A stretch of DNA of 21,724 nucleotides. Source: a virus. A program made the position numbers and the translations under genes. Where the stretch lies: IMG/VR virus record IMGVR_UViG_3300046524_000221, positions 1-21,724 of that record. One strand, written 5' to 3'. The notes under the pieces were generated by a model. The model saw only the letters and a program-made list of their open reading frames with translations. It did not search any database and was not told where the DNA came from. Each line of letters opens with the position of its first letter. Within the stretch, counting starts at the first letter, position 1. Shown piece by piece: positions 2,225 through 18,215 of this stretch.

Positions 2225-2251
2225 CTTGATCGAATGCAAATAAGTGCTAAC
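2225..2251 (+). promoter_or_regulatory. Repeated phage control element, copy 1, with TGCTAA box
   Basis: CTTGATCGAATGCAAA (2225-2240) is followed after four bases by GTGCTAAC (2244-2251). This is one of four near-identical copies on the + strand, ending 42 bases before the helicase start. It lies between a possible minus-strand -35 (TTGACA, 2267-2262) and the divergent XRE gene, so a bound protein could control both directions. Whether it is a promoter core or an operator cannot be told from one copy. The distance from TTGATC to the downstream box varies among copies. Confidence 0.55.
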
Positions 2252-2282
2252 GGTATTCCAATGTCAACGCACAGGACTCGTC

Positions 2283-3878
2283 ATGCTCAATATCACGTCA
2301 ATCCCGACGTCCACCTTCATCCCTTCGCCGCAGCAGGCAGACTTCATCAATTTTGCAGAGAGCGGAAGTGGTTCCTGCGTTCTCGAAGCCGTGGCCGGCG
2401 CAGGTAAGACGACTACCATTTTGCAGGCTGTCAAGAAGACGGCTGGTTCCGCGATCATCCTGGCCTACAACAAGAAGATTGCGGAAGAACTTAAAGAAAA
2501 GCTGAAGCGCGACGGCGTTGACTGGAAAAAGGCTGAGGCTGCTACAGTTCACTCGATCGGCTTGCGCGCGTTCCGAAAACGGTTCCCTGGTGCCGGCGTC
2601 AACGAGAACAAGATCGCCAACCTTTGGTCCGGCGAAGAGCAGGCTGGCAACATCCCGATCGCTCTCAAGCTGCACGTTTCAGCAGTCTGCCAGCTGATCT
2701 CACTCGCCAAGCAGAACGGCTTCGGCGTTCGCGGCATCATCGAGATCGATGACGTCGAAGCGTACATCGAGATGATAGAGCACTACGATATCCTCGACAG
2801 CGGCATCAGCCCGGGCGTCACGTTTGATATCATCTCGACGGCCATTCGGCTGCTCAAGATGTCCAACGATATCACCGACGTCATCGACTTCGATGACATG
2901 GTCTATATGCCGCTGGTCCATAACGTCCGGTTCTGGCAGTACGACATCGTCGTCATGGACGAGGCGCAGGATACCAATACGGTACGCCGCGAGATCGTGA
3001 AGCGACTGCTTAAGCGTGGCGGCCGGTTCTTCGCTGTCGGCGACAGCCGTCAGGCGATTTACGGCTTCACCGGCGCATCGTCCGACGCGCTGGAGATCAT
3101 CAAGCGTGAGTTTGGTGCGATCCAGATGCCGCTCACGGTCACCTACCGATGCCCCAAGGCCGTGGTGGAGTTCGCCAGGCGCTGGGTCGATCACATCGAG
3201 GCACACCCCTCGGCACCCGAAGGTAAGCTGTCGGCTTCTACCTTCGAGGACTTCATCACCCGCCAGGATCTGAACCGCGACGCCGCGGTGCACTGCCGGA
3301 ACACCAAGCCGCTGGTGAAGGCTGCTTTCGCACTGATCCGCGCCAAGGTTCCCTGCCGGATCGAGGGACGCGACATCGCCGAGGGCCTGAAGAAGCTGGC
3401 CCTTCGCTGGAAGTCTGCGAAGACGCTCGGCCAGTTGTCCGATCGCCTCAAGGAATACCAGGAGCGCGAGGTCGCCAAGGCGCTTGAGAAGAAAAAGGAG
3501 ACTCAGGCGCAGCAGATCGAGGACAAGGTCGACACGCTCCGGGTTATCATGTCCCGCGTGCAGGAAGACGGTCGCAACGACGTCGACGCGGTGGTCGCCT
3601 ACATCGACCAACTGTTCGGCGACAACGTCTCCAGCGTCCTGACGCTCTCGACGATCCACAAGTCGAAGGGCCGCGAATGGAAGCGTGTCTTCTGGCTCGA
3701 TCGCGTCAACACCTGCCCGTCTCGCTACGCCACTCAGGAATGGCAGAAGGTGCAGGAACACAACTTGTGTTACGTCGCGGCAACTCGGGCCATGGACGAG
3801 TTGATCGAATTACTGCCGCCAACAGAAAAGAAAGCAGCAAACGAGAACAACAAGCCGACGCAGGAAAAGGCCGCGTGA
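2283..3878 (+). CDS. UvrD/Rep-type superfamily 1 DNA helicase
   Basis: The 531-residue protein would translocate on single-stranded DNA and unwind duplexes using ATP, serving replication or recombination. Superfamily 1A motifs are in order: Q-motif region PSPQQADF (15-22), Walker A AGAGKTT (38-44), Walker B DEAQD (226-230), motif III GDSRQAIYGFTGA (253-265), motif IV YRCP (288-291), motif V STIHKSKGREW (456-466) and motif VI YVAATRAMDEL (497-507). A lysine- and glutamate-rich stretch at about 385-425 probably forms the 2B/coiled segment. I chose the ATG at 2283 because AGGA lies upstream at the right spacing and the Q motif follows directly. A longer in-frame start at 2244 would run through the control element. 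The stop overlaps the next ATG (TGATG). Confidence 0.93.
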   Translation: MLNITSIPTSTFIPSPQQADFINFAESGSGSCVLEAVAGAGKTTTILQAVKKTAGSAIILAYNKKIAEELKEKLKRDGVDWKKAEAATVHSIGLRAFRKRFPGAGVNENKIANLWSGEEQAGNIPIALKLHVSAVCQLISLAKQNGFGVRGIIEIDDVEAYIEMIEHYDILDSGISPGVTFDIISTAIRLLKMSNDITDVIDFDDMVYMPLVHNVRFWQYDIVVMDEAQDTNTVRREIVKRLLKRGGRFFAVGDSRQAIYGFTGASSDALEIIKREFGAIQMPLTVTYRCPKAVVEFARRWVDHIEAHPSAPEGKLSASTFEDFITRQDLNRDAAVHCRNTKPLVKAAFALIRAKVPCRIEGRDIAEGLKKLALRWKSAKTLGQLSDRLKEYQEREVAKALEKKKETQAQQIEDKVDTLRVIMSRVQEDGRNDVDAVVAYIDQLFGDNVSSVLTLSTIHKSKGREWKRVFWLDRVNTCPSRYATQEWQKVQEHNLCYVAATRAMDELIELLPPTEKKAANENNKPTQEKAA

Positions 3879-4234
3879 TGCAGGTCCACTATTCGTTCGG
3901 TCCGGCGCCGGCCGGCGTGGACGTGTTGTGGCGCTGCGAGGCCAAGCGCTACTCGGTCGTGATCGATGCCGATGCCGACATCTACGGCGTCAGCGATCCG
4001 CGCCTGGAGATGACATGGTGGCGCATCGATCGAAGGACACCGAAGGGTGCCTGGGTCGGCGGCCAGTTCATCCGTCTCACCGCTTTCAAGCGGTGGGCCT
4101 GCAACACTGAGGAGGAGGCGTTCGCCTCCTTCATCGCCCGGAAGAAAAAGCACATCGCAATTCTCTCCTCTCAGCTGAGACGGGCAGAGGCCGACCTGGC
4201 ACTTGCCTTGGCTCCCGCTCGTCTCGTCGCTTGA
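3878..4234 (+). CDS. Small protein of unknown function, coupled to helicase
   Basis: The 118-residue product starts at the ATG that overlaps the helicase stop by one base. The N-terminal part is rich in beta-prone, aromatic residues (VDVLWRCEAKRYSVVIDADA, then MTWWRIDRR). The C-terminal third, about residues 80-112, is a predicted amphipathic helix with many Lys, Arg, Ala and Leu residues. No catalytic motif is recognised. The tight coupling suggests it is made in step with the helicase and might be an accessory factor, but that is inference. Its stop codon lies inside the next copy of the repeated control element. Confidence 0.72.
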   Translation: MQVHYSFGPAPAGVDVLWRCEAKRYSVVIDADADIYGVSDPRLEMTWWRIDRRTPKGAWVGGQFIRLTAFKRWACNTEEEAFASFIARKKKHIAILSSQLRRAEADLALALAPARLVA

Positions 4235-4245
4235 TTGAATGCAAA
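4230..4245 (+). promoter_or_regulatory. Repeated phage control element, copy 2
   Basis: CTTGATTGAATGCAAA differs from copy 1 by one base. It overlaps the stop codon of the upstream gene (TGA, 4232-4234) and ends only 11 bases before the ATG at 4257. That leaves little room for a conventional promoter plus leader, so here the element is either an operator or part of a very short 5' leader. No TGCTAA box follows this copy. Confidence 0.45.
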
Positions 4246-4256
4246 CGAGGTCACCA

Positions 4257-5012
4257 ATGCAAGGTTTCGTCTTCTATCGCGGCCCGTCGATGATCGACGG
4301 CAAGCCCATCGTCGCTATCGCCTCCGGATACGAGTCCGGGGGCGCTAATTCCAAGACCGGCCACATGGTGCAGATCTACATCATGCGCGGCGACATGAAC
4401 CCGTTGAAAGCCGTCCAGACCGGCGAGGACGTTTCGATCTGCGGTAGCTGCAAGCACCGCGGTCAGATCGTCGCGGACCCGGTTACCGGCGAGCGCTCGA
4501 ACACCGGCCGGTCCTGCTACGTGACCCTCTTCCGCGGCCCTCGCGTGGTCTACGACGCGTTTCAGCGCGGCGTCTATTCAGACGTCACTCCGGCGCAGGC
4601 ACGCAAGCTGCTGGCCCGCAGGCGCGTTCGGCTGGGCGCCTACGGCGATCCCGGCGCAGTGCCTATGGCAGTTTGGGAGCTAGCTCTCGATCGCGTCGCC
4701 GACCTCAATGGCTACACCCATCTGTGGCGCGAGTTTCCGACGATGTCGGCATTCTCGATGGCGTCTTGCGACACCGAAGAAGAGCGCGCCGAAGCCAAGG
4801 CGCTGGGCTTTCGCACCTTCCGCGTCCGCGGCAAGACCGAGCCGGTGCTCAAGGGCGAAGGTCGCTGCCCCGCATCCAAGGAGATGGGAAAGGCCGTGCA
4901 GTGCACACAGTGCATGTTGTGCGGCGGCGCGAAGACCAACGCCAAGGCGGACATCACCATCATCGCTCACGGTGTCGGATCAGGACACTTCGAGCGCTCG
5001 CTGAAGGCATGA
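4257..5012 (+). CDS. Cysteine-rich Gp88-like phage protein, possible metal or Fe-S cluster binder
   Basis: The 251-residue protein has eight cysteines in three groups: CGSC at 62-65 followed by SCYV at 86-89, Cys171, and a C-terminal cluster at Cys204, 216, 219 and 222 (CPASKE, then CTQCMLC). Between them lie RLGAYGDPGAVP (125-136) and GYTHLWRE (152-159). This order of N-terminal Cys cluster, RxGxxGDP, YTxxW, then CP...CxxCxxC is the order I recall for the Gp88-type phage family. I infer a shared fold with bound zinc or iron-sulfur. Substrate and role are unknown. The ATG at 4257 has GAGG six bases upstream, while the alternative ATG at 4239 has none. It sits just after control element copy 2. 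Confidence 0.8.
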   Translation: MQGFVFYRGPSMIDGKPIVAIASGYESGGANSKTGHMVQIYIMRGDMNPLKAVQTGEDVSICGSCKHRGQIVADPVTGERSNTGRSCYVTLFRGPRVVYDAFQRGVYSDVTPAQARKLLARRRVRLGAYGDPGAVPMAVWELALDRVADLNGYTHLWREFPTMSAFSMASCDTEEERAEAKALGFRTFRVRGKTEPVLKGEGRCPASKEMGKAVQCTQCMLCGGAKTNAKADITIIAHGVGSGHFERSLKA

Positions 5013-5016
5013 TGCC

Positions 5017-5202
5017 ATGCCCGCACGCAAGAAGTTCCTCTGGGAAGACACCACCCGCATCGTCGACACCGACTTCGACAACGACGACCTGGGAGACCTG
5101 TTCAGAGTCTCAATCGAGGGCCGCGTCTCGTCGGCTCAGATCCGCGATTACGCCCGCAGCAGATCCCGCAGCGACAGCTACGACGAGGTGGATTTCGGAT
5201 GA
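5017..5202 (+). CDS. Small acidic protein, function unknown
   Basis: The 61-residue product has an acidic centre (DTDFDNDDLGD), then a short IEGRVSSAQIRDYARSRSRS stretch and an acidic end. It resembles no family I know. It begins four bases after the preceding stop and its own stop overlaps the next start by four bases (ATGA). That position in a tight chain is the main reason to call it a gene. A competing ATG at 5012 in another frame reads through low-complexity sequence and is rejected. Confidence 0.65.
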   Translation: MPARKKFLWEDTTRIVDTDFDNDDLGDLFRVSIEGRVSSAQIRDYARSRSRSDSYDEVDFG

Positions 5203-5459
5203 AGTTCAACGTCAACGATGAGGTACGCGTCAAGCTGACCTCCTTCGGCCGGTCCATTCATCGGCTGCAATGGGAAGCGCGAGAGCAGAGTGTTCGGGAG
5301 CTGCTCGGCGCCTACGAACCTCCGATCGAGGACTCGGAGGGCTGGTCCACATGGCAGCTGTGGGAGTTGATGCACAGCTTCGGCGCTCACTGCTTCAACG
5401 GCTGCATCATCCCGTTCGAAATGCAGATCGACATCATTACACGAGGAGAAAAACCATGA
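5199..5459 (+). CDS. Small protein of unknown function
   Basis: The 86-residue product opens with MKFNVNDEVRVKL, a beta-strand-like start of the kind seen in small SH3- or KOW-like folds. Its centre is rich in Trp and Glu (EGWSTWQLWELM) and two Cys lie near the end. No known domain can be assigned. It overlaps both neighbours by four bases (ATGA at each end), so it is translated as part of the five-gene chain that follows the Gp88-like gene. Confidence 0.7.
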   Translation: MKFNVNDEVRVKLTSFGRSIHRLQWEAREQSVRELLGAYEPPIEDSEGWSTWQLWELMHSFGAHCFNGCIIPFEMQIDIITRGEKP

Positions 5460-5770
5460 AGGTGAAGGAGAAGGACGAAGCGATGGTCCGTAAGGTCATC
5501 GCCGACGCCCTGGCTGCCGGCTACACGCTGAGCGTCTGGGACGGCGAGGAAGAAACGCTAACCAACAGTAGCGACGCAGATGCTCTGTTCAAAGCGATGA
5601 TGACGACCGACCAGGACCATCTCTACTTTCTGCGAGATGGAAAGAGTGTCGGCTGGGTGTTCTTCGTCTATGGTGAAAGTGGTTGGGACGTTATCAACGA
5701 CTACACCGTTAATCTTGAAGAGGTGCTGAAAGGTGCTGATGCGCTGTCCGACGAGTTGGCCGATGCTTGA
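5456..5770 (+). CDS. Small acidic protein, function unknown
   Basis: The 104-residue product starts at an ATG with the strongest ribosome-binding site of this cluster (AGGAG, eight or nine bases upstream), so it may be the best expressed of the chain. An N-terminal helix (KDEAMVRKVIADALAAGYTL) leads into alternating beta and helical segments with several aromatic residues (LYFLRDGKSVGWVFFVYG), ending in an acidic helix. I know of similar small proteins only as hypotheticals. Overall charge is strongly negative, which would allow a DNA-mimic role, but nothing specific supports that. Confidence 0.75.
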   Translation: MKVKEKDEAMVRKVIADALAAGYTLSVWDGEEETLTNSSDADALFKAMMTTDQDHLYFLRDGKSVGWVFFVYGESGWDVINDYTVNLEEVLKGADALSDELADA

Positions 5771-6056
5771 CGTCACAGCGTTTGGCTTCACGCTGGGTCA
5801 GCGCGTTCGAATGCTGACCGAGTCTGAGGGCGAGGATCATCTCGGTATCGAGCATAGGCTGCCGCCTGGTGCCATAGCCATCATCGATCAGATGGAGTTC
5901 AAGATCGGCGATCCGGATTGGTACAGCTTCACGCTGTGGATTCCGATCGACGAGTCGAAAGACCGAGGAATCGTTAACGTGCTAGACCCGAGTGATGGGC
6001 CAATCACCGATTTCATCACGCCAATTGACGCGCCGCAGCAGGAGAAAATCGCTTGA
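5763..6056 (+). CDS. Small beta-rich protein, function unknown
   Basis: The 97-residue product begins at the ATG at 5763, which overlaps the preceding stop by eight bases. The sequence GFTLGQRVRMLTESEGED then LPPGAIAIIDQ looks like a small beta barrel of the SH3/KOW kind, often a nucleic-acid or protein contact module. This is pattern reading, not homology. Its start lacks a clear ribosome-binding site, so it probably depends on translation of the gene before. Its stop overlaps the TTG start of the next gene. Confidence 0.68.
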   Translation: MLDVTAFGFTLGQRVRMLTESEGEDHLGIEHRLPPGAIAIIDQMEFKIGDPDWYSFTLWIPIDESKDRGIVNVLDPSDGPITDFITPIDAPQQEKIA

Positions 6057-6226
6057 GCAAAGAGAAACTTTACGTCGTGTACTCGCTAACGCCGGGCGCG
6101 AAGGAATGGGTTGAGGTGACCAAAGAGCCTGTGGCACGCGGTGCCGCAGCGCTGGCTGTTGCTAATGAATGGCAGAAGCACAACTTCGCCCGTGCTCTAT
6201 CAGTGCAGATTTCTAAGGCAGCCTAA
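6053..6226 (+). CDS. 57-residue small protein with TTG start
   Basis: The reading frame starts TTG-AGC-AAA and ends TAA at 6224-6226. The TTG overlaps the preceding TGA by four bases (TTGA), and AGGAG lies eight bases upstream, a strong ribosome-binding site. The product begins SKEKLYVVYSLTPGAKEWVE and ends ALSVQISKAA, a plausible beta-helix-beta mini-fold. Function is unknown. It is short enough to be missed by automatic callers. The frame, ribosome-binding site and coupling together make it a credible last member of the small-gene chain. Confidence 0.68.
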   Translation: MSKEKLYVVYSLTPGAKEWVEVTKEPVARGAAALAVANEWQKHNFARALSVQISKAA

Positions 6227-6237
6227 TCGTTAACGAT
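6226..6237. promoter_or_regulatory. Perfect 12-bp palindrome, candidate operator
   Basis: ATCGTTAACGAT is perfectly self-complementary over 12 bases. It starts on the last base of the stop codon of the 57-residue gene and lies 80 bases before the Cro-like HTH gene at 6318. Such a symmetric site fits a homodimeric HTH repressor. It has no loop, so it is not a terminator. The rest of 6238-6317 shows no convincing gene or strong -35/-10 pair. Confidence 0.4.
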
Positions 6238-6317
6238 AGAGGCACAGTTCACAAATCCCAATATGGACATCGAGAGCGTGATCACCCACATACGATCCTT
6301 ACTGATCGAGAATCAAA

Positions 6318-6605
6318 ATGCCGACAACCAAGAAAAAGGCGTCTAAGAAGTTTTTGAACGGTCAGGATTTCAGATCCTGGCGAGTAACGCGGGAGCTAAC
6401 GCTCCAGCAGGTTGCAGACATGCTCGGCATGACTGCACAGGGCGTGGCTAAATATGAGTCGCGGGGGGCCACAAGAACAACGGCGCTCGCTTTATCGGCA
6501 ATTGAGAAGGGGTTGAAGCCCTGGCATCCGAAGACCGACAAGGCCCGCACCACAATCAGGAGTGAACGGCCCAATGAAATCCAGCGCAAAGAAGGTTGTG
6601 GCTGA
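6318..6605 (+). CDS. Cro/XRE-like helix-turn-helix DNA-binding protein
   Basis: The 95-residue protein has a basic N-terminus (TTKKKASKKF), then an HTH domain at about 19-62. SWRVTRELTLQQVADMLG forms the first helices, and MTAQGVAKYESRG contains the recognition helix. The tail is basic. It probably binds operators in this regulatory island, perhaps as the Cro-like partner of the S24-type repressor encoded convergently. That pairing is inferred from position. The start has only a weak purine stretch upstream. Its end overlaps the next gene by 32 bases in another frame. Confidence 0.83.
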   Translation: MPTTKKKASKKFLNGQDFRSWRVTRELTLQQVADMLGMTAQGVAKYESRGATRTTALALSAIEKGLKPWHPKTDKARTTIRSERPNEIQRKEGCG

Positions 6606-6954
6606 GGAAACCAGTCCTCGGTATCGATCGATCAACGCTCAATTCGCAGCCCGGCTGCCGGCTATCGTCGAAACCATTGCTCAGGGATCGAGGTTCTCGA
6701 AAGAGAATCTGGACAAAACGGTCACGGCAGTCGAGGAATTTCAGGACTATATTACCTTCGAGATCAAGAAGGTGGAGCTGGATATTGCTCATCTCGAATG
6801 GAATTCGCGCACCAATCCCGAAGAGTTAGCACATGCGAAGGCTTGGCTTAGCCGACTGCGCGAGCTTCAGAAGAAGTACCAGGTTGACGGCATTCTTCAG
6901 TCGGTTGTTTTCCTCACCGAGCTGCGCCGAGCGATCCAGCTTGATTTAATGTAA
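6574..6954 (+). CDS. Helical protein of unknown function
   Basis: The 126-residue product is almost entirely alpha-helical in appearance, with heptad-like stretches (TVTAVEEFQDYITFEIKKVE, then AWLSRLRELQKKYQ) that suggest a coiled coil. There is no cysteine or membrane segment. I chose ATG at 6574, with AGGAG about 11 bases upstream. A GTG at 6562 is in frame but overlaps that AGGAG. It follows the Cro-like gene and precedes the bidirectional terminator, so it ends this rightward transcript. It may be a regulator or partner of the HTH protein. No function is assigned. Confidence 0.7.
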   Translation: MKSSAKKVVAEETSPRYRSINAQFAARLPAIVETIAQGSRFSKENLDKTVTAVEEFQDYITFEIKKVELDIAHLEWNSRTNPEELAHAKAWLSRLRELQKKYQVDGILQSVVFLTELRRAIQLDLM

Positions 6955-6957
6955 GAA

Positions 6958-6979
6958 AGGGCCGCTTGTGGGCGGCCCT
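6958..6979. terminator. Bidirectional terminator hairpin between convergent genes
   Basis: AGGGCCGC (6958-6965) pairs perfectly with GCGGCCCT (6972-6979) around the loop TTGTGG. It starts a few bases after the stop of the + gene and ends just before the stop of the minus-strand repressor. On the minus strand the stem is followed by TTTCTTAC, a short U-rich tail. The + side has only CAATT. Confidence 0.75.
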
Positions 6980-6982
6980 CAA

Positions 6983-7681
6983 TTACGCGGTCTTCATCGC
7001 AACCATGACGATGGCGAGTTCGCCGATATCGTCGAAGCCGATTTTCTCGTCATCCTTGGCAGGCATCGATTTCGAGAGAGTCAGGCCGTTCTCGTTGAGG
7101 CCTACCAATATCCGAACGCGAGCGCGACCAGACTTGTCGGTGACCACCAGAATGTCACCCGCGATCGGATCACGGCTCTTGCTGGCGAACATGAGCGAGC
7201 CAGCCTTGAACCACGGATCGAGAGAGTCGTCCGGCATATAGAAGCCGAACGCGGTATCGTCATCCTTGAGCTGCGGCGGGACCGCCACCTGACCTGTTCG
7301 CTTCGAACCCGTCGTACTCTGCAGCGACGTCGGCAGCGCAGAGAAATAGCGCAGATCGACCGTCGCAGCAGCGTGCGACCTGGACGAGCTGCTGGGCTTC
7401 TTCTCTTCACTCGTTGCAGGCTGAGCCTGGCGGAGCAACTCGGTGATCTCGCTCGGGATGGGAAGGTTGCTCGCCTCGGAGATCTTACCCAGCGTCTTCA
7501 TCGAGGGCACGAACTGATACTTCTCGTCGTTCAGGAGGCGCAGGATGGTTGACGGAGAGAGGCTCGCCTTTCGAGCCAGGTCCGTGCCTGTCCAATTCTT
7601 CCGATCGAGGATCGCCTGGATCCAGTCGACAACAACGTCCTTGGCGGACTTCATAGGGGTGGCAGCCATTACATCGGGCAT
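6983..7681 (-). CDS. CI-like repressor with HTH and S24-type C-terminal domain
   Basis: The 232-residue protein has an HTH domain at about 20-55 (LARKASLSPSTILRLLNDEK), a low-complexity Ser/Glu linker (88-105) and a LexA/CI-like C-terminal domain from about 140. There MPDDSLDPWFKAGS holds the usual Ser position (Ser153), followed by GDILVV. Where LexA-type proteins have the catalytic Lys (VKR), this one reads VRIL, with Arg190. Self-cleavage may therefore be lost and induction could use another route. I chose ATG at 7681, with AGAGA nearby. A longer in-frame version to 7768 lacks a ribosome-binding site. It is probably the lysogeny-type repressor of the phage, acting on operators around 7682-7962. 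Confidence 0.85.
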   Translation of the reverse strand: MPDVMAATPMKSAKDVVVDWIQAILDRKNWTGTDLARKASLSPSTILRLLNDEKYQFVPSMKTLGKISEASNLPIPSEITELLRQAQPATSEEKKPSSSSRSHAAATVDLRYFSALPTSLQSTTGSKRTGQVAVPPQLKDDDTAFGFYMPDDSLDPWFKAGSLMFASKSRDPIAGDILVVTDKSGRARVRILVGLNENGLTLSKSMPAKDDEKIGFDDIGELAIVMVAMKTA

Positions 7682-7962
7682 GGGAATCTCTATCGGTAGT
7701 CGCTGAATAAAAGTAGAGGCGCAAGAAAAAATTTGCTTTGGTTCGAAGACAAACGTCGTCGTTTGCACTCACCGAGCACACCCTTCGATCTTCTGCAGAA
7801 GTCAGTCTCGACTTGCACTTGCATTCGCCCCGTTTGTAATCAAGCTAACGGCCTGACATACGACAGGTTTCGAGCTAATGCAAAGAAAATTTCTGTTCAC
7901 GGAATGTTCTGCTATTGACTCCGAGAGCAAAATGCTCTCTGAGCCTTACGAAACAAGGGGTT
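7682..7962. promoter_or_regulatory. 281-bp repressor control region
   Basis: This is the longest stretch without a gene. It holds an inverted repeat CAAACG-N4-CGTTTG (7750-7765), a GCTAACGG box near 7844 that matches one at 2246, a GCTAATGCAAA box (7874-7884) shared with 11323-11333 and 18205-18215, and a hairpin with stem GAGAGCA/TGCTCTC and loop AAA (7923-7939). The minus strand carries TTGCAT-17-TATGTC as a weak promoter candidate for the repressor. The hairpin lies 24-40 bases past the stop of the RuvC-like gene and may end its transcript, though no U tract follows. A 61-codon frame at 7733-7918 looks spurious. Confidence 0.55.
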
Positions 7963-8592
7963 TTAAGCCGCGATGTTGGCGGCGGCCCTTAGCATTGGCA
8001 GAACGGCTTTGAACTCGGGAGTTCGAAGTCCTGCATGAACGATTGCACACGAATCAGCGACATGCTCGTTGTCATCATGCAAATCGCCGGCAGTTCGAAC
8101 GACCTTGCCGCGACTCGAGTCCTTCTCGTAGCGCTGCCATTCAACTTGTGGATAAAGATCGGCCGCCCAGGCGATGATCTCCGGCTTGTCCGCCTTTTTG
8201 CCGAGGCCAGTGGCCTCCTTCGTCTCAGAGGGCATGACCTGGAATAGTGGGATGGGGCACGAGGCAAGCACGCCGATCGCGATCCCGAAGCCCATTGCAG
8301 CCCGCGCCATCTGCGTCCCTGAAGGTATTTCGGCAAAGGCGTAGGTGCAGCCCTCCATCTGTTTGTGGAAGCCCTGATACAGCTCGACAGCGCGGCGCAT
8401 GTCGTCCGAGTTCTGCCGGATCACCTTGCGGGTCTGCTTCAGCTTCTCGGTGGTGAGCGTGGTGGCGCTCTCGATCTTCAGGCTGAGGTCAGTCAGGTCG
8501 AGATCGAAACGGGCAAAGCCCATGTTGGCGAATGCGGCATCGACTCCGACCACCTTGATGATGGAACCGGCAGGCTTTCTGAGGAGCTTCAT
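7963..8592 (-). CDS. RuvC-like Holliday junction resolvase (RNase H fold)
   Basis: The 209-residue protein would cut four-way DNA junctions made during phage recombination or replication. It begins with a beta strand carrying the first acidic residue, VVGVDAAFANMGFARFD (Asp18). The second conserved acid is Glu88 in AFAEIPSG, followed by the helical stretch AMGFGIAIGVL. The C-terminal motif is NEHVADSCAIVHAG (175-188), with Glu176 and Asp180. This acid layout is that of RuvC-type nucleases. I chose ATG at 8592 because AGGACAGCG precedes it on the minus strand. An ATG at 8625 lacks this. The gene diverges from the initiator gene and shares a 115-bp control region with it. Confidence 0.83.
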   Translation of the reverse strand: MKLLRKPAGSIIKVVGVDAAFANMGFARFDLDLTDLSLKIESATTLTTEKLKQTRKVIRQNSDDMRRAVELYQGFHKQMEGCTYAFAEIPSGTQMARAAMGFGIAIGVLASCPIPLFQVMPSETKEATGLGKKADKPEIIAWAADLYPQVEWQRYEKDSSRGKVVRTAGDLHDDNEHVADSCAIVHAGLRTPEFKAVLPMLRAAANIAA

Positions 8593-8650
8593 CGCTGTCC
8601 TTTGTGGGGCGTCGCAGGGTCGCAACTAAATATCGTGTCTTGCCCTGTCA

Positions 8651-8669
8651 TTCGAATTAGTGCTAATTA
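8651..8669. promoter_or_regulatory. Symmetric TGCTAAT operator-like site in divergent region
   Basis: AATTAG-TG-CTAATT (8655-8668) is a 14-bp inverted repeat that contains the TGCTAAT box found at other transcript starts here. It lies between the divergent RuvC-like and initiator genes. It overlaps a possible minus-strand promoter, because TTGACC lies upstream on that strand. TTCGAATTA (8651-8659) recurs at 2213-2221. A repressor binding here could control both genes. Confidence 0.5.
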
Positions 8670-11300: not shown

Positions 11301-11333
11301 CTTGATCGAATGCTAACAGCATGCTAATGCAAA
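11301..11333 (+). promoter_or_regulatory. Repeated phage control element, copy 3, with TGCTAAT box
   Basis: CTTGATCGAATGCTAA (11301-11316) is identical to copy 4 at 18181-18196. It is followed by ATGCTAATGCAAA (11321-11333), 38 bases before the ssb start at its closest part. It lies just after the primase-helicase stop. It would give ssb its own transcript start or operator. A good -10 hexamer at normal spacing is not obvious. Confidence 0.6.
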
Positions 11334-11354: not shown

Positions 11355-11993
11355 ATGGCCGGAACCGTTAACAAAGTGATCCTGGTGGGTCGCGTGGGCG
11401 CAGACCCCGAGATCCGTCAGGCTGGCGACAAGGACGTCGCGAACCTGCGCATCGCCACCAGCGAAAGCTGGAAGGATAAGCGCTCGGGTGAGTGGCAGGA
11501 AAAGACCGAGTGGCACAGCATCACTGTCTGGGCCGAAGGCACCATCAAGTACATCGAGAACAACGTCAGCAAGGGCGACCTGATCTACATCGAAGGTCAG
11601 CTCGAAACCCGCAAGTACGAGAAGGACGGCGTCGATCACTATAAGACGGACGTCGTGATCCCGGCTTTCGGTGGCGCGCTGAAGAGCCTCGTCAAGAACG
11701 ATCGCGATGGCGGTGGTGATGATCGCGGTTCGGACCGCGGTGGTGATCGCGGTGGCCGCAGCGGCGGTTCTCGCAACGACGATCGCGGTGCCAACAGCCG
11801 CAACAGCTCCCGCAACGATGATCGCGGCAGCAAGGACAGCGGTTCGGATCGCGGTGGTCGCAGCAACGATCGCGGCAACGACCGCAACGATGACCGCAGC
11901 AGCTCGCGCAACAGCGGTTCCCGCAACAGCGGAAACGGCAGCTCGTCGCGCGGCGGCGGAAAAAACGACATGGATGACGACATCCCCTTTTGA
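11355..11993 (+). CDS. ssb: Single-stranded DNA-binding protein
   Basis: The 212-residue protein has a bacterial-type OB-fold at about 1-112. It opens AGTVNKVILVGRVGADPEIR, followed by SGEWQEKTEWHSITVWAEG and GDLIYIEGQLETRKYE. A linker of about 90 residues built of Asn, Asp, Arg, Gly and Ser follows, with many NDDRG-like units. The end, DMDDDIPF, is the acidic tip that host replication and repair proteins bind. The linker is longer than usual, and its DNA repeats (AACGATCGCGG-like) make it prone to length change. AGGAG precedes the ATG. The gene has its own control element upstream and a run of hairpins downstream, so it is probably a separate, strongly expressed unit. It protects single strands and recruits partners. 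Confidence 0.96.
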   Translation: MAGTVNKVILVGRVGADPEIRQAGDKDVANLRIATSESWKDKRSGEWQEKTEWHSITVWAEGTIKYIENNVSKGDLIYIEGQLETRKYEKDGVDHYKTDVVIPAFGGALKSLVKNDRDGGGDDRGSDRGGDRGGRSGGSRNDDRGANSRNSSRNDDRGSKDSGSDRGGRSNDRGNDRNDDRSSSRNSGSRNSGNGSSSRGGGKNDMDDDIPF

Positions 11994-12061: not shown

Positions 12062-12066
12062 ATTTC

Positions 12067-12109
12067 GGAGGGGCGCCTATTCCTGGTGCGTGCGTTAAGG
12101 CGCCCCTCC
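12067..12109. terminator. Strong terminator-like hairpin after ssb
   Basis: GGAGGGGCGCCT (12067-12078) pairs perfectly over 12 bases with AGGCGCCCCTCC (12098-12109), with a 19-base loop. It lies 40 bases before the next gene and is the most stable hairpin noticed in the window. It lacks a clear U tract on either side, so it may be a terminator aided by Rho or an mRNA-stabilising element. Confidence 0.6.
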
Positions 12110-12149
12110 ACCTGCATCACCCCCATGCACGATTTCGAACGGAGCTACC

Positions 12150-13396: not shown

Positions 13397-14019
13397 TGAT
13401 GTTGCCGTTGCCCCTCTGCATCAACGTCGAAGAGATCGTCGCCAATTCCTTCAAGGATTTTCACACCAAGGGCTTCGATTACATCTGCCTGAAGCGCTCG
13501 CCGACTGAGACCGTGAAGCTCTACTTCTTCGATGGCGATGTGGCGAAGCTGCCGGAGGTCGTTGCTCCGCACGATCACCGCTACGATTTCGCGACTTGGG
13601 TCGCTGCCGGAGCCAGCGAGAACGTCTGGTTCAAACGTGACGACAAGGAAGGCGAAGTCTTCAACTGGTTCGAATACCGCACTCCCCTGAATGGGGGAGA
13701 CGGCTTCACCTTCGTCGGTGAGGAACAGTTGAAAGAGGTCGCGCGCCGACAATTCAAGAAGGGCGACAACTACTCCATGCACGCCGCCGATCTTCACACG
13801 ATCAGAATTGTCGAGAACGAGACAGTCCTGATGCTGATCCAGCACGAGGATCTGGTGCCGCTCGATCGACCTACGTCGACCTTCTCAATGGGGAATGCCC
13901 CATCGATCGACGGCCTCTACTCGAAGTTCAGTGCGGACCAGGTCATCGACCGACTGCGGAAGTTCGAGGAGCGGACCGGACACCTATTCAAGAGCGCTGG
14001 CGCCCGTGCAGCAGCCTGA
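13396..14019 (+). CDS. Cupin-like protein of unknown function
   Basis: The 207-residue product looks like a single small-molecule-type beta barrel. APHDHRYDFATWVAAG (57-72) carries His59 and His61. YSMHAADLHTIRIV (126-139) carries His129 and His134, spaced as the two metal-binding cupin motifs would be. Between them lie beta strands with FEYRTP and a Lys/Arg-rich turn. Cupin-fold proteins bind metal and often act on small organic compounds, but the substrate here is unknown. AGGAG lies eight bases before the ATG, which overlaps the previous stop. Similar cupin-like genes occur in other phages without a known role. The assignment rests on the His pattern. Confidence 0.72.
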   Translation: MMLPLPLCINVEEIVANSFKDFHTKGFDYICLKRSPTETVKLYFFDGDVAKLPEVVAPHDHRYDFATWVAAGASENVWFKRDDKEGEVFNWFEYRTPLNGGDGFTFVGEEQLKEVARRQFKKGDNYSMHAADLHTIRIVENETVLMLIQHEDLVPLDRPTSTFSMGNAPSIDGLYSKFSADQVIDRLRKFEERTGHLFKSAGARAAA

Positions 14020-14254
14020 AAGCAAAGCTGTCGCCGACGCTCAGCTTCGGATGCATTCCGCGAGGGATGTGTTCGAGGCAAGCCTCTTTCATCTGAAGGC
14101 GATCTTCGAGAGCAATCACACGCAGGAGAAGGTCGAGATGGCCAGGTCCGCGGTGGTCTCCGCCGGAGAAGCAATCGCCGACTGCATGCTCGACATCCTC
14201 TGGATCAGACTCCGTGAAGCGGGGCACGACCCAGCACAACGGAGACGGAAATGA
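14006..14254 (+). CDS. Small helical protein, GTG start
   Basis: The 82-residue product from the GTG at 14006 is helical, with the core RDVFEASLFHLKAIFESNHT and a long second helix. The C-terminus is basic (DPAQRRRK). The start overlaps the end of the cupin-like gene by 14 bases. An upstream open frame exists but reads low-complexity Ser/Arg sequence and is not credible. The stop overlaps the next ATG by four bases (ATGA). Function is unknown, and the exact start is less certain than for its neighbours. Confidence 0.6.
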   Translation: MQQPESKAVADAQLRMHSARDVFEASLFHLKAIFESNHTQEKVEMARSAVVSAGEAIADCMLDILWIRLREAGHDPAQRRRK

Positions 14255-14448
14255 AGGACTGCCTGAACTGCATTTACAGCACCTACGTCGGGAACGTCAT
14301 CCGCGTTCTTGGTTGCACCGCCCCTGGTATCGGCCAGGGCACGAAGGTCCGTCCCGCCGGTATGGAGCGGCATGACCAAGCTGGCGTCTGCGGCCCGGAC
14401 GGCAAGATGTTCGTCGAGACGGCGGTGCCGGCGCAGGATGTCGCGTGA
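14251..14448 (+). CDS. Small cysteine-containing protein, possible zinc binder
   Basis: The 65-residue product has four cysteines. MKDCLNCIY gives Cys4 and Cys7, VLGC gives Cys22, and AGVCGPDGKMF gives Cys47. CxxC plus two more could hold one zinc ion. GGAG precedes the ATG. It overlaps both neighbours by four bases. It comes right before the exonuclease gene and could assist it, though that is inference from position alone. Confidence 0.65.
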   Translation: MKDCLNCIYSTYVGNVIRVLGCTAPGIGQGTKVRPAGMERHDQAGVCGPDGKMFVETAVPAQDVA

Positions 14449-15143
14449 GACGGATCGTCCTCGATACAGAAACGACCGGCCTCAACTTCGCTGAGGATCG
14501 GATCGTCGAAATCGGTTGCGTCGAGATTGACGGTTTCAATCCGACTGGGAAGACCTATCACGCCTACGTCAATCCGCTTCGTAAGGTCCATCCGGAAGCG
14601 TTCCGTGTCCACGGCCTGAGTGACGTGTTCCTGGCGTCGAAGCCGACCTTCAAGCGGGTCGTCAATCGCTTCCTGAAGTTCATCGGCGATGCGCCGCTGA
14701 TCATTCATAATGCGCCGTTCGACACCCGCATGTTGAACGGTGAAATGAAAAGGCTCGGTCTCCCTAACTTGGAGAACGAGATTATCGACACCCTGAAGAT
14801 GTCGCGAGACCTGCGACCGGGCGGTAAGCACACGCTCGATGCGCTTCTCAGCGCCTACAAGATCGACGGGAGCCGTCGTAGCCAACACCACGGCGCGCTC
14901 ATCGACTCAGAGCTGTTGGCTGAGGTCTACGTCGAGCTGTGCGGCGGACGACAGATTGGCTTCGGCCTTGTCGTCGAAAAGGCTGTGGAAGAGGTGATGC
15001 CGGTTCGTCGGCGCTCTGCTCCGCTGGCAAGCCGGGTGACTGACGAGGACCGCGCGGCACACCGCGCTTTCGTTGAGACACTCGGAGAGAAGGCGATCTG
15101 GAACGAGTATCTGGCGCCGAAGGAAATCGACAAGGCGGCCTGA
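14445..15143 (+). CDS. DnaQ-like 3'-5' exonuclease (DEDDh family)
   Basis: The 232-residue protein would remove 3' terminal nucleotides from DNA, as in polymerase proofreading or end trimming. All DEDDh residues are visible. Exo I is VLDTETTGL (Asp7, Glu9). Exo II is IHNAPFDTRML (Asp93). Exo III is HHGALIDSELLAEVY, with His149 and Asp154. The domain covers about 1-165. The remaining 65 residues are charged and unassigned. The start is GTG overlapping the previous TGA, with AGGA seven bases upstream. No DNA polymerase is encoded in this window, so it may work with a host polymerase or on its own. The next gene is a 5' end exonuclease, suggesting a shared role in DNA ends. Confidence 0.92.
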   Translation: MRRIVLDTETTGLNFAEDRIVEIGCVEIDGFNPTGKTYHAYVNPLRKVHPEAFRVHGLSDVFLASKPTFKRVVNRFLKFIGDAPLIIHNAPFDTRMLNGEMKRLGLPNLENEIIDTLKMSRDLRPGGKHTLDALLSAYKIDGSRRSQHHGALIDSELLAEVYVELCGGRQIGFGLVVEKAVEEVMPVRRRSAPLASRVTDEDRAAHRAFVETLGEKAIWNEYLAPKEIDKAA

Positions 15144-15207
15144 TTGGCCGCTCCAAGGGCGGAGCTGTGCCCGCTCACTTGCACGAATTGAAACAAGGAG
15201 AACGACA

Positions 15208-16167
15208 ATGCAAACTGCACGATATCGTACTGGCAATATCGGTATGTCCGACGCCGCCCGCGACGCCCGTCGTGGATCGCTCGGCGGATCCGATGCCCGC
15301 ATCATCATGTCCGGCAACCAGTCGGCAATCGAAGAGCTGTGGGCGCAGAAGCGCGGAGAAGCGCCGGACACCGACCTGTCTGACGTGCTGCTGGTCCAAC
15401 TCGGCAATATCACCGAGGCGATCAACGCCGACTGGTTCGAGAAGGAGACCGGTCTGTTCGTCACCAACGAACAGGACAAGGTCCACTATGCCGAGTGGGA
15501 GTTCGCTCACACCACTCTCGATGGCATCGTCCGATCGGCTCGCGATCTGACAGCGCCGAGCCGCGGCATCGTCGAGTTCAAGTACATGCTGCCCTTCAAC
15601 TTCACGAAGGAAGGCGCTGTCGAGAAGTATTTCCCGCAGCTGCAGCACAACATGATGGTCACCGGCGTGAAACACGCCTGGATCTCCATCATCACTGGTG
15701 CCGGCGGGTATTACCTGGCCGAGGTCGATGCCGACATCTTCTACCAGATGAAGCTGCTCGATGAGCTGAAGAAGTTCTGGGATTGCGTCCAGACCGGTCG
15801 CCTGCCCGGCGTTCCGGAGGTCGTCATACCTCAGATCGAGCGCGTCAAGAAGATCGACATGACTGGCGACAACCAGTGGGGCGATCTCGCTGCCACGCTG
15901 ATCGGCACGAAGACCTATGCCGAGCGCCATGAGAAGGCGAAGAAGGACATCAAGAAGATGTTCCCGAACGACGCTCAGGAGGCGTCCGGCTACGGCGTGA
16001 AGATCAGCCTGTCGAAGGACGGCAAGACGCTGATCAACCTCGACAAGAAAGAGATCGAGAAGTTCGACAACGACAACGGGCTCGCTCCCGCTGTCGAAGC
16101 CAAAGAAACGAAACCGAAGGCGCCTCGCAAAAAGGCAGCCGCCAAAGCCACTGAAGAAGCGGCGTAA
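15208..16167 (+). CDS. YqaJ-type viral recombinase exonuclease (lambda Exo-like)
   Basis: The 319-residue nuclease would resect double-stranded ends 5'-3' to give tails for annealing. The PD-(D/E)XK core is seen. RRGSLGGSDARIIMS (21-35) is the usual N-terminal signature. Glu70 is in GNITEAINADWFE, Asp105 in TLDGIV, and Glu123 and Lys125 in IVEFKY. Gln144 and Gln146 lie in the motif PQLQHNMMVTG. The C-terminus is Lys/Ala-rich (APRKKAAAKA), a likely DNA-contacting tail. AAGGAG precedes the ATG, which I preferred to an upstream ATG at 15073 inside the exonuclease gene. A 64-bp gap separates it from the DnaQ-like gene. It probably forms a recombination pair with the next gene. Confidence 0.92.
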   Translation: MQTARYRTGNIGMSDAARDARRGSLGGSDARIIMSGNQSAIEELWAQKRGEAPDTDLSDVLLVQLGNITEAINADWFEKETGLFVTNEQDKVHYAEWEFAHTTLDGIVRSARDLTAPSRGIVEFKYMLPFNFTKEGAVEKYFPQLQHNMMVTGVKHAWISIITGAGGYYLAEVDADIFYQMKLLDELKKFWDCVQTGRLPGVPEVVIPQIERVKKIDMTGDNQWGDLAATLIGTKTYAERHEKAKKDIKKMFPNDAQEASGYGVKISLSKDGKTLINLDKKEIEKFDNDNGLAPAVEAKETKPKAPRKKAAAKATEEAA

Positions 16168-16178
16168 GGAGAAAGACA

Positions 16179-16895
16179 ATGGCAGGACGCAGCAACAAGA
16201 GCGCCAAGCTGGATGCGATCTACGACGTGTTCGAGAAGCACGGCGTCAAGCTGGATCGCGACTCGATCTGGGATGTCCAGGGCACGCCCGTCGTCAAGCA
16301 CAAGGACGTCGAGCGCCTCGGCGCCAAACTGAACATCAAGTACGACATCCCCACCCTCATCCGCTCCGAGCGTGATGAAGCTGTGATCATGGTCGTCGGC
16401 CGGCTCGGCGACCGCATGGAGTGGTCGATCGGAGAGGCGCTGATCAACAAGGAGGGGCAGCCGGGTGGCAACTACAAGGTCACTGGAAAGCAGGCTGGCT
16501 ACGTCTACGCTATGGCCGAGAAACGCGCCAAGGACCGCGTGATCCTGAAGCTCGCCGATCTGCATGGCGACGTCTACTCCGAAGAGGAGGCTGATGATTT
16601 CAAGGAAGAGGGTCGCAACAACAGCCGCAGCAACGATAGCCGCTCGGCGAACGACAACCGCCAGTCCGGAAAACAGTCGGAAAAGTCGACCGATGACGAG
16701 ATCGTGGAAAAAATCCGCGACTTCAAGATCGAGGTTGATGAATGCAACAGCCGGCAGGATCTGATCGACCTGATGACCAGCAAGGATACGGGAAAGTTCT
16801 TCTCGACCCTGACTCCCGACGAACATCAGGACATCCGCAAATATGCGGAAGATCGACTGGCCGAGGTTGATCAGCCGAAAGCCGCCAACGGCTGA
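16179..16895 (+). CDS. Candidate single-strand annealing protein, partner of the YqaJ exonuclease
   Basis: The 238-residue protein follows the exonuclease by 11 bases with its own AAGGAG. The N-terminal domain (about 1-140) is mixed alpha/beta and ends with KVTGKQAGYVYAMAEKRAKD followed by RVILKLADLHGDVYSEEEA. That basic helix resembles the Arg/Lys-rich helix in Rad52- and ERF-like annealing proteins. A Ser/Asn/Asp linker (145-170) and an acidic helical C-terminus follow, a common build for phage recombinases that contact SSB or the exonuclease. The annealing role is inferred from gene order and the helix pattern. No motif proves it. The stop overlaps the next ATG by one base. Confidence 0.72.
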   Translation: MAGRSNKSAKLDAIYDVFEKHGVKLDRDSIWDVQGTPVVKHKDVERLGAKLNIKYDIPTLIRSERDEAVIMVVGRLGDRMEWSIGEALINKEGQPGGNYKVTGKQAGYVYAMAEKRAKDRVILKLADLHGDVYSEEEADDFKEEGRNNSRSNDSRSANDNRQSGKQSEKSTDDEIVEKIRDFKIEVDECNSRQDLIDLMTSKDTGKFFSTLTPDEHQDIRKYAEDRLAEVDQPKAANG

Positions 16896-17164
16896 TGGCC
16901 ACGCGGTCCAAAGCTGACGCTTACATGGAACTGGCAGTCTGGGGGATCGGCATGGCGCAAACGCCTGCCTTTCTCAGATCGACGTGGGCTCACGAAGCTC
17001 GCCATCGAGAAGAGTACGGTCTCTCAGACGACCAGATCGCGGAGTTGGTCAGGCTCTGCAAGCTCAGAGTCATCGAGCTTGAAGAGAACGCCGCTGCCAT
17101 TGCAGCAGATCAGAAGCCGACGAGGTCACGATCGAGACCCGCGCGGCGTGGTGCAGCAATCTGA
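16895..17164 (+). CDS. Small basic protein of unknown function
   Basis: The 89-residue product has two helices (LSDDQIAELVRLCKLRVIEL and the preceding AHEARHREEY) and a strongly basic end (RSRSRPARRG). The tail could bind nucleic acid. It is coupled to the candidate annealing gene by a one-base overlap, so a recombination accessory role is possible, by inference only. No family is recognised. Confidence 0.68.
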   Translation: MATRSKADAYMELAVWGIGMAQTPAFLRSTWAHEARHREEYGLSDDQIAELVRLCKLRVIELEENAAAIAADQKPTRSRSRPARRGAAI

Positions 17165-17170
17165 GGAACC

Positions 17171-17629
17171 ATGTCGAACAACAAATCGAAGAACCAATGG
17201 ATCCTCGTCCGCAAGGTTGAGGGAAAGCTGGTGGCGCATGCGCCATACGACGAGGCGATGTTGGATCGCTTCCAGGACAACGTGCCGCTGCGCATCCAGT
17301 TGGCGCAGCCCCGCAGCGGTCCGCGTCACCGACTCTACCGCGTGATCCTGCGCATCATCGTTGAGAACACCCACCTGTTCACGACCGAGGACGCCCTGCA
17401 CAAGACCCTGCTTGTGGCGTGCGGGCTGGTGGAGCCGGTCATCACGACCCGTGGCGAGATCATCATGTGCCCGTCGTCAACGGCGTTCGAGGCCATGCCG
17501 GAGGAGGAGTTCAAACCCTACTTCGATGAAGCCATGCAGGTCATCGCGTCGGAGATCATCCCCGGCATCGATCTCGAAGAGCTGCTGTCGGAGGCCCGGG
17601 GCCAATCGAAATACAAGGAGGCGGCGTAA
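17171..17629 (+). CDS. Conserved phage protein, possibly DUF1367-like
   Basis: The 152-residue product begins with short beta strands (QWILVRKVEGKLVAHAPYDE). RSGPRHRLYRVILRIIVENT (48-67) and EDALHKTLLVACGLVEP (73-89) follow. Then come PSSTAFEAMPEEEF (101-114) and a helical end. Phage proteins of the DUF1367 kind have a similar order of an RxxxxHRLxxAxL helix, an ALH helix and a PSSTAF stretch. I recognise the pattern but cannot confirm the family. Such proteins are usually found in phage recombination and replication regions and have no settled function. GAGG lies upstream of the ATG. The stop overlaps the next ATG (TAATG). Confidence 0.78.
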   Translation: MSNNKSKNQWILVRKVEGKLVAHAPYDEAMLDRFQDNVPLRIQLAQPRSGPRHRLYRVILRIIVENTHLFTTEDALHKTLLVACGLVEPVITTRGEIIMCPSSTAFEAMPEEEFKPYFDEAMQVIASEIIPGIDLEELLSEARGQSKYKEAA

Positions 17630-17916
17630 TGACGCCGATCGAGATGGCGCAATCATGCGCCCAGGCCATTCAGGCCACCCAGCAGTTCGGCGGCGACATG
17701 AAGGAGGCGGCGTTGCGCCTCACGATGCCAGGCCCCTGGAAACCCCCGAAACGCTTCCCGCGGGGCCGTCTGGATATCGTCCATGACGATGGCCGGCGGG
17801 TGTTCTGCTTCAGCGCCGTCAACGTGCTGGCGTGGCTCGTCGGCAACGAGATGGTCGAGGTGAAATACGTGCCTGTCGAAGGCGGCACCCGAATGGAAAT
17901 CAAGGAACTGAGCTGA
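17629..17916 (+). CDS. Small protein of unknown function
   Basis: The 95-residue product has an N-terminal helix rich in Ala and Gln, a Pro/Lys/Arg-rich middle (PGPWKPPKRFPRGRL) and a beta-like C-terminus (VEVKYVPVEGGTRMEIKE). The ATG overlaps the previous stop by one base and its own stop overlaps the start of the membrane protein gene. The Pro- and Arg-rich middle could contact DNA or a protein partner. No family is recognised. Confidence 0.66.
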   Translation: MTPIEMAQSCAQAIQATQQFGGDMKEAALRLTMPGPWKPPKRFPRGRLDIVHDDGRRVFCFSAVNVLAWLVGNEMVEVKYVPVEGGTRMEIKELS

Positions 17917-18167
17917 TGTTCATAGCGTGGCATGACACCCTCACCGTCTTCGTCTTCGTCTGGTTCTTGATCGGCGCGCTCGCATCGGGAGGCATGATCT
18001 GGGTCTCGATGGGGTTCACCGGCAAGTTTCCTTGGGAGGCGATCCCGATCTTCTTTTTCGCGCCCATCATCCTGCTGGTCCGCATCTGCGGCCCGGCGCT
18101 TCCCATCGTCCTGGCGCTGGTGCTGGCAGGGGCCATTGCATGGCTGTTCAGATGGGCGATTGCATAA
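17916..18167 (+). CDS. Small integral membrane protein
   Basis: The 83-residue product is mostly hydrophobic, with three likely membrane helices at about 9-31, 41-58 and 60-82. Short polar turns (GKFPW and RICGP) separate them. It has no cleavable signal peptide. Its size and topology would suit a holin. It is far from lysis genes and sits at the end of a recombination operon, so another membrane role such as superinfection exclusion or replication-complex anchoring is equally possible. The ATG overlaps the previous stop. It is the last gene before the next control element. Confidence 0.75.
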   Translation: MFIAWHDTLTVFVFVWFLIGALASGGMIWVSMGFTGKFPWEAIPIFFFAPIILLVRICGPALPIVLALVLAGAIAWLFRWAIA

Positions 18168-18173
18168 ATCCGC

Positions 18174-18215
18174 TTGACCGCTTGATCGAATGCTAATATC
18201 AAATGCTAATGCAAA
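18174..18215 (+). promoter_or_regulatory. Promoter candidate with repeated control element, copy 4
   Basis: TTGACC (18174-18179), a 17-base spacer and TATCAA (18197-18202) form a reasonable housekeeping promoter. The spacer is filled by the element CTTGATCGAATGCTAA (18181-18196). ATGCTAATGCAAA follows at 18203-18215. Transcription would start near 18208-18210, on or next to the ATG at 18209, which implies a leaderless or nearly leaderless message. Confidence 0.6.

Follow-up and report, generated by a model that had tools for sequence, protein, structure and literature searches.

Why does a 16-base element recur, each time on the same strand, close to the starts of four genes in a fragment of viral DNA? 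The question arises in IMG/VR virus record IMGVR_UViG_3300046524_000221 (positions 1 to 21,724), a 21.7-kb fragment referred to here as the window; among the isolates of the phage collection, Bradyrhizobium phage BDU-MI-1 comes nearest to it. Copies of the element lie at 2225-2240, 4230-4245, 11301-11316 and 18181-18196, all on the + strand, near the starts of a helicase gene, a Gp88-like gene, ssb and an HNH gene. An earlier note on this DNA had picked out the same four copies and offered two explanations: operators for an XRE or S24-type repressor, or a promoter read by a host or phage-modified polymerase. Comparison with related phages led us to conclude that the element is very probably the recognition site of the phage's own S24/CI-type repressor, predicted at 6983-7681 (- strand), which from sites at many gene starts would silence the prophage at many points.

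The four copies stand where the earlier note had placed them. Those at 11301 and 18181 are identical, that at 2225 differs from them at one base and that at 4230 at two, again as it had described. Its judgement that such a repeat exceeds chance held as well: with up to three mismatches allowed the window contains five matches, the fifth at 6940-6955 with three mismatches, against a mean of 0.43 and a maximum of two in shuffled sequences (0/100 shuffles reached five).

The window copies represent the form that one phage has of a directional, partly palindromic element of 16 bp, which is dispersed in a group of large phages including BDU-MI-1 and an integrated prophage of Bradyrhizobium hipponense. 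The variant TTTGCWTGAATGCAAA occurs in many copies in BDU-MI-1 and in a further viral locus, L126. A weight matrix trained on BDU-MI-1 finds 44 sites above the control threshold in this 121-kb genome, 35 of them strong (at least 17 bits), a number that is partly circular because the matrix was trained there; the position and orientation of the sites are not circular. Scanning with a repressor profile built from the window, BDU-MI-1 and L126 yielded 25 viral loci, the L126 contig itself among them, and one bacterial genome, that of B. hipponense. All 26 loci have at least one match to the element at up to three mismatches and 25 of them have at least six, the reversed control giving 0 or 1. In whole records, where matches with up to three mismatches were counted on both strands so that palindromic sites may count twice, each of ten virus records of 101-128 kb carries 15-49 matches, the lowest number being that of record G005. 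Dyad symmetry over 148 strong sites averages 5.3 of 8 positions.

The window and BDU-MI-1 have a similar gene order: helicase, Gp88-like, a small XRE gene (+ strand), the S24-type repressor (- strand), a - strand gene at the place of a RuvC-like gene, replication initiator, primase/helicase, ssb, DNA polymerase III epsilon subunit, RecE-like and ribonucleotide reductase genes. No close relative of the window was found by searching with its repressor alone. The exact window motif, when sought across all viral contigs, matched at least 118 stretches, each with one match among the matches listed; these were taken as chance background and not used. We found no description of the element in open-licence PubMed Central, and the passages on Bradyrhizobium phages retrieved with repressor or operator terms held nothing relevant.

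Where do the sites lie with respect to genes? The earlier note had asked if the motif is equally common inside genes and on both strands. In BDU-MI-1 it is neither: none of the 35 strong sites lies fully inside an annotated gene, against 85% of all 16-mers; within 120 nt a gene start was found on the site's own strand for 28/35 sites and on the opposite strand for 3/35 (only on the site's strand for 26, only on the other for one). The same polarity appears in a wider sample of 21 dereplicated sequences, the window and 20 others, which remained after removal of seven near-duplicates from 28. Among the 174 sites that these contain at a threshold of 14 bits, a start codon with a plausible ribosome-binding site (RBS) follows within 80 nt on the 3′ side of 123 and on the other side of 50. 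The distances form two peaks, one at 10-14 nt (47 sites, against two on the other side) and one at 35-44 nt (29 against ten).

The two peaks correspond to two classes of site. In the far class (25-70 nt from the start, n = 60) a TA follows the motif TTGCWT at a spacer of 16-18 nt in 34/60 cases, the offset control giving 3/60; among the matches listed, the -35-like TTGCWT is followed about 17 nt on by a -10-like TAAT or TATC. In this promoter class the site takes in the -35 of a predicted sigma70-type promoter together with half of its spacer. In the near, start-codon class (8-17 nt, n = 55) a TA at promoter spacing is present in only 6/55. The near class leaves no room for such a promoter, because with the same geometry the -10 would coincide with the start codon or fall beyond it. 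Its RBS lies outside the element and beside it (among the matches listed), and all 11 BDU-MI-1 sites within 16 nt of a start codon have a co-directional upstream gene, five of them within 30 nt.

Both classes are represented in the window. The copy at 2225-2240, before the helicase gene, is of the promoter class, with the promoter-like hexamers TTGATC (2226-2231) and TAACGG (2248-2253) separated by 16 nt. The helicase start is likely ATG 2283, chosen by homology (the longest open reading frame, ORF, begins at GTG 2244), which places the site 42 nt from the start, as in BDU-MI-1. The copy at 11301-11316 is similar: TTGATC (11302-11307), a spacer of 17 nt and TAATGC (11325-11330) precede the ssb ATG at 11355, and the distance of 38 nt is again that of BDU-MI-1. 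In contrast, the copies at 4230-4245 and 18181-18196 abut start codons. The former overlaps the stop codon of the preceding ORF (end 4234) and is followed by GAGG (4247-4250) and by the ATG of the Gp88-like gene at 4257, 11 nt downstream. The latter lies 12 nt before ATG 18209, the likely start of the HNH gene, as in BDU-MI-1, an alternative ATG being at 18203. The placing of the copies at transcript starts thus fits the first and third and not the second and fourth, and the doubt already voiced that the copy at 4230 could be a standard promoter proved well founded, as this copy stands for an entire second class.

The sites are conserved before homologous genes. When the 150 nt upstream of the homologues, window included, were scored at 11 bits, a site was found before the helicase gene in 14/14 sequences, before ssb in 19/19, before the Gp88-like gene in 18/19 (at 10-13 nt in every case), before repO, the replication initiator gene, in 18/20, where many sites read better on the other strand, and before the RecE-like gene in 12/17. 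Smaller samples gave 2/3 for ORF 12150 and 2/2 each for the HNH gene and ORF 18909. No site was called upstream of the primase gene (0/21), ORF 6562 (0/20), the small XRE gene (0/19), the epsilon subunit gene (0/17), ORF 16895 (0/13), ORF 16179 (0/12), ORF 13393 (0/7), the ligase gene (0/4), the reductase gene (0/2) or ORF 5017 (0/1). At the Gp88-like gene the site has a mean pairwise identity of 85% in 17 sequences, against 47% and 31% for the adjoining upstream 16-bp stretches.

The BDU-MI-1 matrix calls nine sites in the window above a cut-off of 10 bits, the best reversed-sequence control reaching 8.6. The more credible additional ones on the + strand are 15178-15193 (CTTGCACGAATTGAAA), a weak site with 11.1 bits by the unadapted matrix, 14 nt before ATG 15208 of a RecE/YqaJ-type exonuclease gene, and 18884-18899 (TTTGTTCGAATTGAAA, 12.9 bits), 9 nt before ATG 18909; both are assigned to the start-codon class. 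The hits at 7738-7753 (+ strand) and at 8068-8083 (- strand, inside the RuvC-like gene) are uncertain as sites. Most relatives have a clear site before the replication initiator gene; at this place (8650-8667) the window has a degenerate palindrome-like sequence, ATTCGAATTAGTGCTAAT, that the matrix does not call.

Which protein reads the sites? The number of sites follows the presence of the S24/CI-type repressor gene. All 18 whole records with the repressor carry 12-62 matches, and the ten relatives of 38-72 kb that lack it all have 0-3. The first scan of whole records covered 23 records, representing 16 of the 26 repressor loci and seven of ten related loci, and nine further records were searched later. 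In the first scan the 16 repressor records had 12-62 matches, the value of 62 belonging to a whole 8.8-Mb genome with a backwards control of 20; the other seven had no repressor match and 0, 0, 1, 0, 0, 0 and 0 matches. Among 65 helicase- or primase-related loci, partly on the same contigs, the 27 with the repressor hold 207 sites (reversed control six), at least three each, and the 38 without it in the stretch examined hold 30 (control five), 23 of them having none. Five of these 38 (L167, L184, L186, L187 and L189) have at least three sites. The whole record of L187 does encode the repressor and has 39 matches, as does that of L188, with 18. In the records of L194, L195 and L196 (47-61 kb), which lack the repressor, 1, 3 and 1 matches were counted against controls of 2, 1 and 0. 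A host regulon was rejected because 26 of the 27 matches with up to two mismatches in the B. hipponense genome sit on the prophage contig.

The repressor at 6983-7681 (- strand; alternative upstream start at 7768) is predicted to consist of an N-terminal Cro/C1 helix-turn-helix (HTH) domain and a C-terminal domain of the S24/LexA fold. PF01381 matched the window protein above its cut-off (24.7 against 23 bits) and PF00717 below it (21.6 against 23.3 bits; 12.2 in BDU-MI-1). The AlphaFold model had a mean pLDDT of 76 and a pTM of 0.49. Its top Foldseek match was the lambda repressor (3bdn, E = 3.5e-5) with a TM-score of only 0.36, so the domains are placed differently; VIA-align matched it to the C-terminal domains of LexA and lambda repressor and to the HTH domains of C proteins, Thermotoga maritima LexA giving Z = 11.5 and a root-mean-square deviation of 3.0 over 114 aligned residues. 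A sequence-profile search of solved structures returned no match to the repressor, and its hhalign alignment to Escherichia coli LexA was weak and stopped short of the K156 region of LexA. The helix containing PST(I/V)LR and the right half of the site are both nearly invariant. In the window protein this helix, the recognition helix, carries Ser in place of the Ala of the other aligned rows, and 4/5 window sites have A at position 5, against C or T elsewhere in the 20 remaining sequences; this pairing is a single event and was not counted as evidence.

The promoter of the repressor gene itself carries related sequences. In the window (- strand) a -35 TTGCAT (7878-7883) and a -10 TATGTC (7855-7860) are separated by 17 nt. 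A variant operator, called by the matrix with 18.6 bits, lies just downstream of the -10 at 7833-7848 (- strand), and a second operator-like variant lies over the -35 at 7868-7884, recognized in the alignment of 21 repressor upstream regions and uncalled by the matrix in the window. Operator-like sequences frame the promoter at these two places, on the -35 and just after the -10, in most of the 21 regions; the relatives mostly have TTGCAA and a 17-nt spacer, followed by TATTTG in BDU-MI-1, and L137, L149, L154 and L159 diverge here. This pair of variant sites points to autoregulation of the repressor.

On a promoter-class site the repressor would exclude RNA polymerase, because the left half of the site provides the -35 and the remainder lies in the spacer. 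At a start-codon-class site, which follows a co-directional gene and immediately precedes the RBS, the bound repressor would act on elongating polymerase, as at L5 stoperators, and at the two variant sites it would regulate its own synthesis. We infer that this protein binds the sites, that binding silences the genes and that binding at the start-codon class blocks elongation.

That the element is instead a conserved promoter element, read by host RNA polymerase or by a phage polymerase or sigma factor, is improbable. The -35-like and -10-like hexamers of the promoter class and the agreement of site polarity with transcription are what this explanation would predict, but it fails for the 55 sites located 8-17 nt before a start codon, and the two-fold half-sites and the presence of the element in the repressor promoter fit an operator better. 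A phage-modified polymerase, as the earlier note had entertained, found no support either: neither the single-subunit RNA polymerase family PF00940 nor Sigma70_r2 (PF04542) matched in any of ten records, nine of them relatives and the tenth the window, a fragment, in a search that a novel polymerase type would escape. PF00940 was silent in 14 control genomes and matched phage T7; PF04542 matched 10/14 control genomes.

A slightly poorer candidate still is the small XRE protein (6318-6605, + strand), which as a Cro-like regulator might bind the sites by itself or compete for them with the S24 repressor. Its gene is present in 19 of the 21 dereplicated sequences, and Cro/CI pairs often have operators in common. 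However, L194, L195 and L196 encode it, and their whole records lack the S24 repressor and have just the 1, 3 and 1 matches given above; in record G009 (127.6 kb), where the repressor occurs along with 49 matches, no small XRE was found at E ≤ 1e-3. The recognition helix of the small XRE varies where the sites do not, and its own gene lacks a site in 19/19 sequences. The other XRE protein of the window (1852-2133, - strand) is divergent from the helicase gene and its site and was found in none of the 20 other dereplicated sequences. Because the small XRE occurs without the network and the network without the small XRE, because the helix of the latter varies and because the other XRE was found in the window only, the S24-type protein is, as far as sequence comparison can tell, the strongly supported best candidate for the binder. 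Of the operator hypothesis of the earlier note the S24 half therefore stands, with the co-occurrence, the variant sites in the repressor's own promoter and the conserved recognition helix in its favour, and the XRE half fits less well. The least probable of the alternatives is that the element acts in RNA near the RBS, in translation control or processing as for the start-associated sequences of Cluster K: start-codon-class sites do lie 10-14 nt before the start codon and the palindrome could fold as a short stem, but in the promoter class (among the matches listed) and at the repressor -35 the element is upstream of the inferred transcript start, and the window copies break the potential stem (dyad 2.8/8).

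Several observations weigh against the repressor as the reader of these sites. A symmetric dimer offers no obvious reason for site polarity, and the window sites keep little dyad symmetry (2.8/8 over five sites, against the 5.3/8 of all strong sites) though a dimeric repressor is proposed. The short records of L189, L167, L184 and L186 (5-23 kb) have 8, 6, 6 and 4 matches with no repressor gene within these lengths. In a second complete relative, G009, 16 of 34 strong sites fall inside ORFs, as do 82% of its 16-mers, by a crude longest-start ORF caller; starts within 120 nt numbered 14 on the site's strand and four on the other, counts that in view of this caller were not used as support. For six of the 11 near sites of BDU-MI-1 the upstream gene is 76-355 nt away, which would leave room for another promoter. 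Folding into GC-rich hairpins is no different before start-codon-class sites than before control genes, and a terminator hairpin was rejected as a general mechanism (55 such sites against 178 BDU-MI-1 control starts, median z -0.25 and -0.28 with mononucleotide shuffles). The window is one of two among 20 sequences without a called site before repO, its weaker sites at 15178 and 18884 score just 11-13 bits, and training of the matrix on BDU-MI-1 detracts from the site count there.

Could such a repressor respond to DNA damage? A GTTC-N7-GTTC sequence, the box reported for Caulobacter LexA in the passages cited (PMC9578287; also PMC12700426), lies at 7895-7909, directly upstream of the repressor promoter, and is the sole exact one in the window. 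It is found upstream of the repressor promoter in 14 of the 21 sequences (mean 0.22 and at most 3 in 300 shuffles), and one of the two such boxes in the 121 kb of BDU-MI-1 occupies this place. Self-cleavage of the repressor is uncertain, as judged from the Ser/Lys dyad that RecA-stimulated cleavage would use: Thr or Ala replaces the Ser in 7/17 rows, and between residues 184 and 203 the window protein lacks Lys altogether. Arg188 and Arg190, the latter invariant, lie near the place expected for K156 of LexA; six of 17 rows have Lys at 188. As a hypothesis, host LexA may link DNA damage to the prophage, in one direction or the other.

Temperate life of the group is indicated by integrase genes. 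BDU-MI-1 encodes a tyrosine integrase (PF00589), and the left end of the B. hipponense contig holds an MFS gene and an integrase gene (PF00589). To the right of the phage region lie MoeA, MFS, molybdopterin oxidoreductase and periplasmic-binding genes, with a tRNA-Met gene at 124.8 kb. The region was taken as an integrated prophage because host-type genes flank it and the integrase gene is near its left end. The tRNA-Met gene near the right end of the prophage (L220 12757-12832) is a possible attachment site.

Some individual relatives showed further features. In L187 (122.9 kb, record G027) the sites follow a variant consensus, YTTGCAGGAATGCAAA, which makes it a natural test of repressor-operator co-evolution. 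L154 (record G007) has three repressor-like matches, one of them a C-terminal piece directly after the full gene, as if partly duplicated. L155 (record G008, 18863-19159, - strand) and the B. hipponense prophage encode a second protein, in a 365-aa open frame, that matches the HTH half of the repressor profile only (E = 7e-23) and is possibly a second regulator of the same sites. In L146, L138, L155, L157, L158 and L159 a strong GC-rich terminator-like hairpin lies within the 40 nt before one start-codon-class site each and ends directly at the site. Contig G009 has the same site pair at the same spacing at both ends (L222 4400/5871, L228 1711/3182), suggesting terminal redundancy.

How does this network compare with known systems? 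To our knowledge, stoperators have been established experimentally only in Cluster A mycobacteriophages. Those phages (L5, Bxb1, TipsytheTRex) are described as having 20-30 dispersed operators/stoperators in genome-specific variants (PMC9283540, PMC6550527). The sites described here resemble them, as far as the cited passages go, in being dispersed in promoters and short intergenic gaps, in being oriented with transcription, in differing in sequence from genome to genome and in having a site at the control region of the repressor; against the figure of at least 20 dispersed sites for Cluster A, BDU-MI-1 has 35 strong ones, oriented and mostly intergenic. They differ in length and symmetry, having 16 bp with a partial dyad (5.3/8) instead of an asymmetric 13-14 bp, although the window variant is nearly asymmetric. 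The proteins appear to differ as well. A monomeric repressor with two DNA-binding domains was proposed to explain the control of both initiation and elongation in Cluster A (PMC9283540), whereas the repressor modelled here would have the CI/LexA fold; the fold searches, giving HTH plus S24/LexA, would speak against a monomer of HTH plus Stoperator domain. The hosts, where known, are Gram-negative, unlike those of Cluster A, and blocking of elongation is a proposal here. We do not file the system under the L5 stoperator family because the site is longer with a partial dyad and the repressor is apparently of another architecture.

With lambda CI and the LexA-type (S24) repressors the predicted protein has in common the N-terminal Cro/C1 HTH and the C-terminal S24 fold, but dozens of dispersed sites take the place of a few clustered operators. 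The SAS and ESAS elements (start-associated and extended start-associated sequences) of Cluster K are, in the passages cited, repeated and oriented, SAS typically lying 3-7 bp from the start and containing the core Shine-Dalgarno sequence (PMC3203893). The present sites are likewise repeated, oriented and just upstream of start codons; unlike SAS, they are 10-14 nt off, beside the Shine-Dalgarno sequence, and occur in promoters too. Many mostly intergenic repeats, several of them likened to stoperators, are also described for T1/Stevie, TLS, Cluster O and the Nostoc phages A-1/N-1; T1 and Stevie are described as lytic and stable Cluster O lysogens were not recovered (PMC4319613, PMC11447400, PMC4351075, PMC4916379). 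These repeats have other sequences than ours, as given in the same passages; the motifs of Cluster O and of the Nostoc phages show no consistent agreement with gene direction, and no proven binding protein is named in the passages on dispersed repeats.

A broader scheme is put forward tentatively, as a possibility and not as an expectation: a stoperator system of independent origin in Gram-negative phages, in which a CI/LexA-fold repressor at polar half-symmetric sites, in promoters and as elongation road-blocks before single genes, would silence a 120-kb prophage, its self-cleavage lost and SOS control passed to the host through the LexA box at the repressor promoter. If this is true, silencing of elongation needs no special protein with two DNA-binding domains, and the polarity of sites can be tested with a repressor whose architecture is well known. 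With dozens of sites in each genome, the network also provides a regulatory map of this group of large phages and prophages, and the box suggests a testable route from the host SOS response to prophage induction. In the best reading of the comparison, the network would work most like the operators and stoperators of L5.

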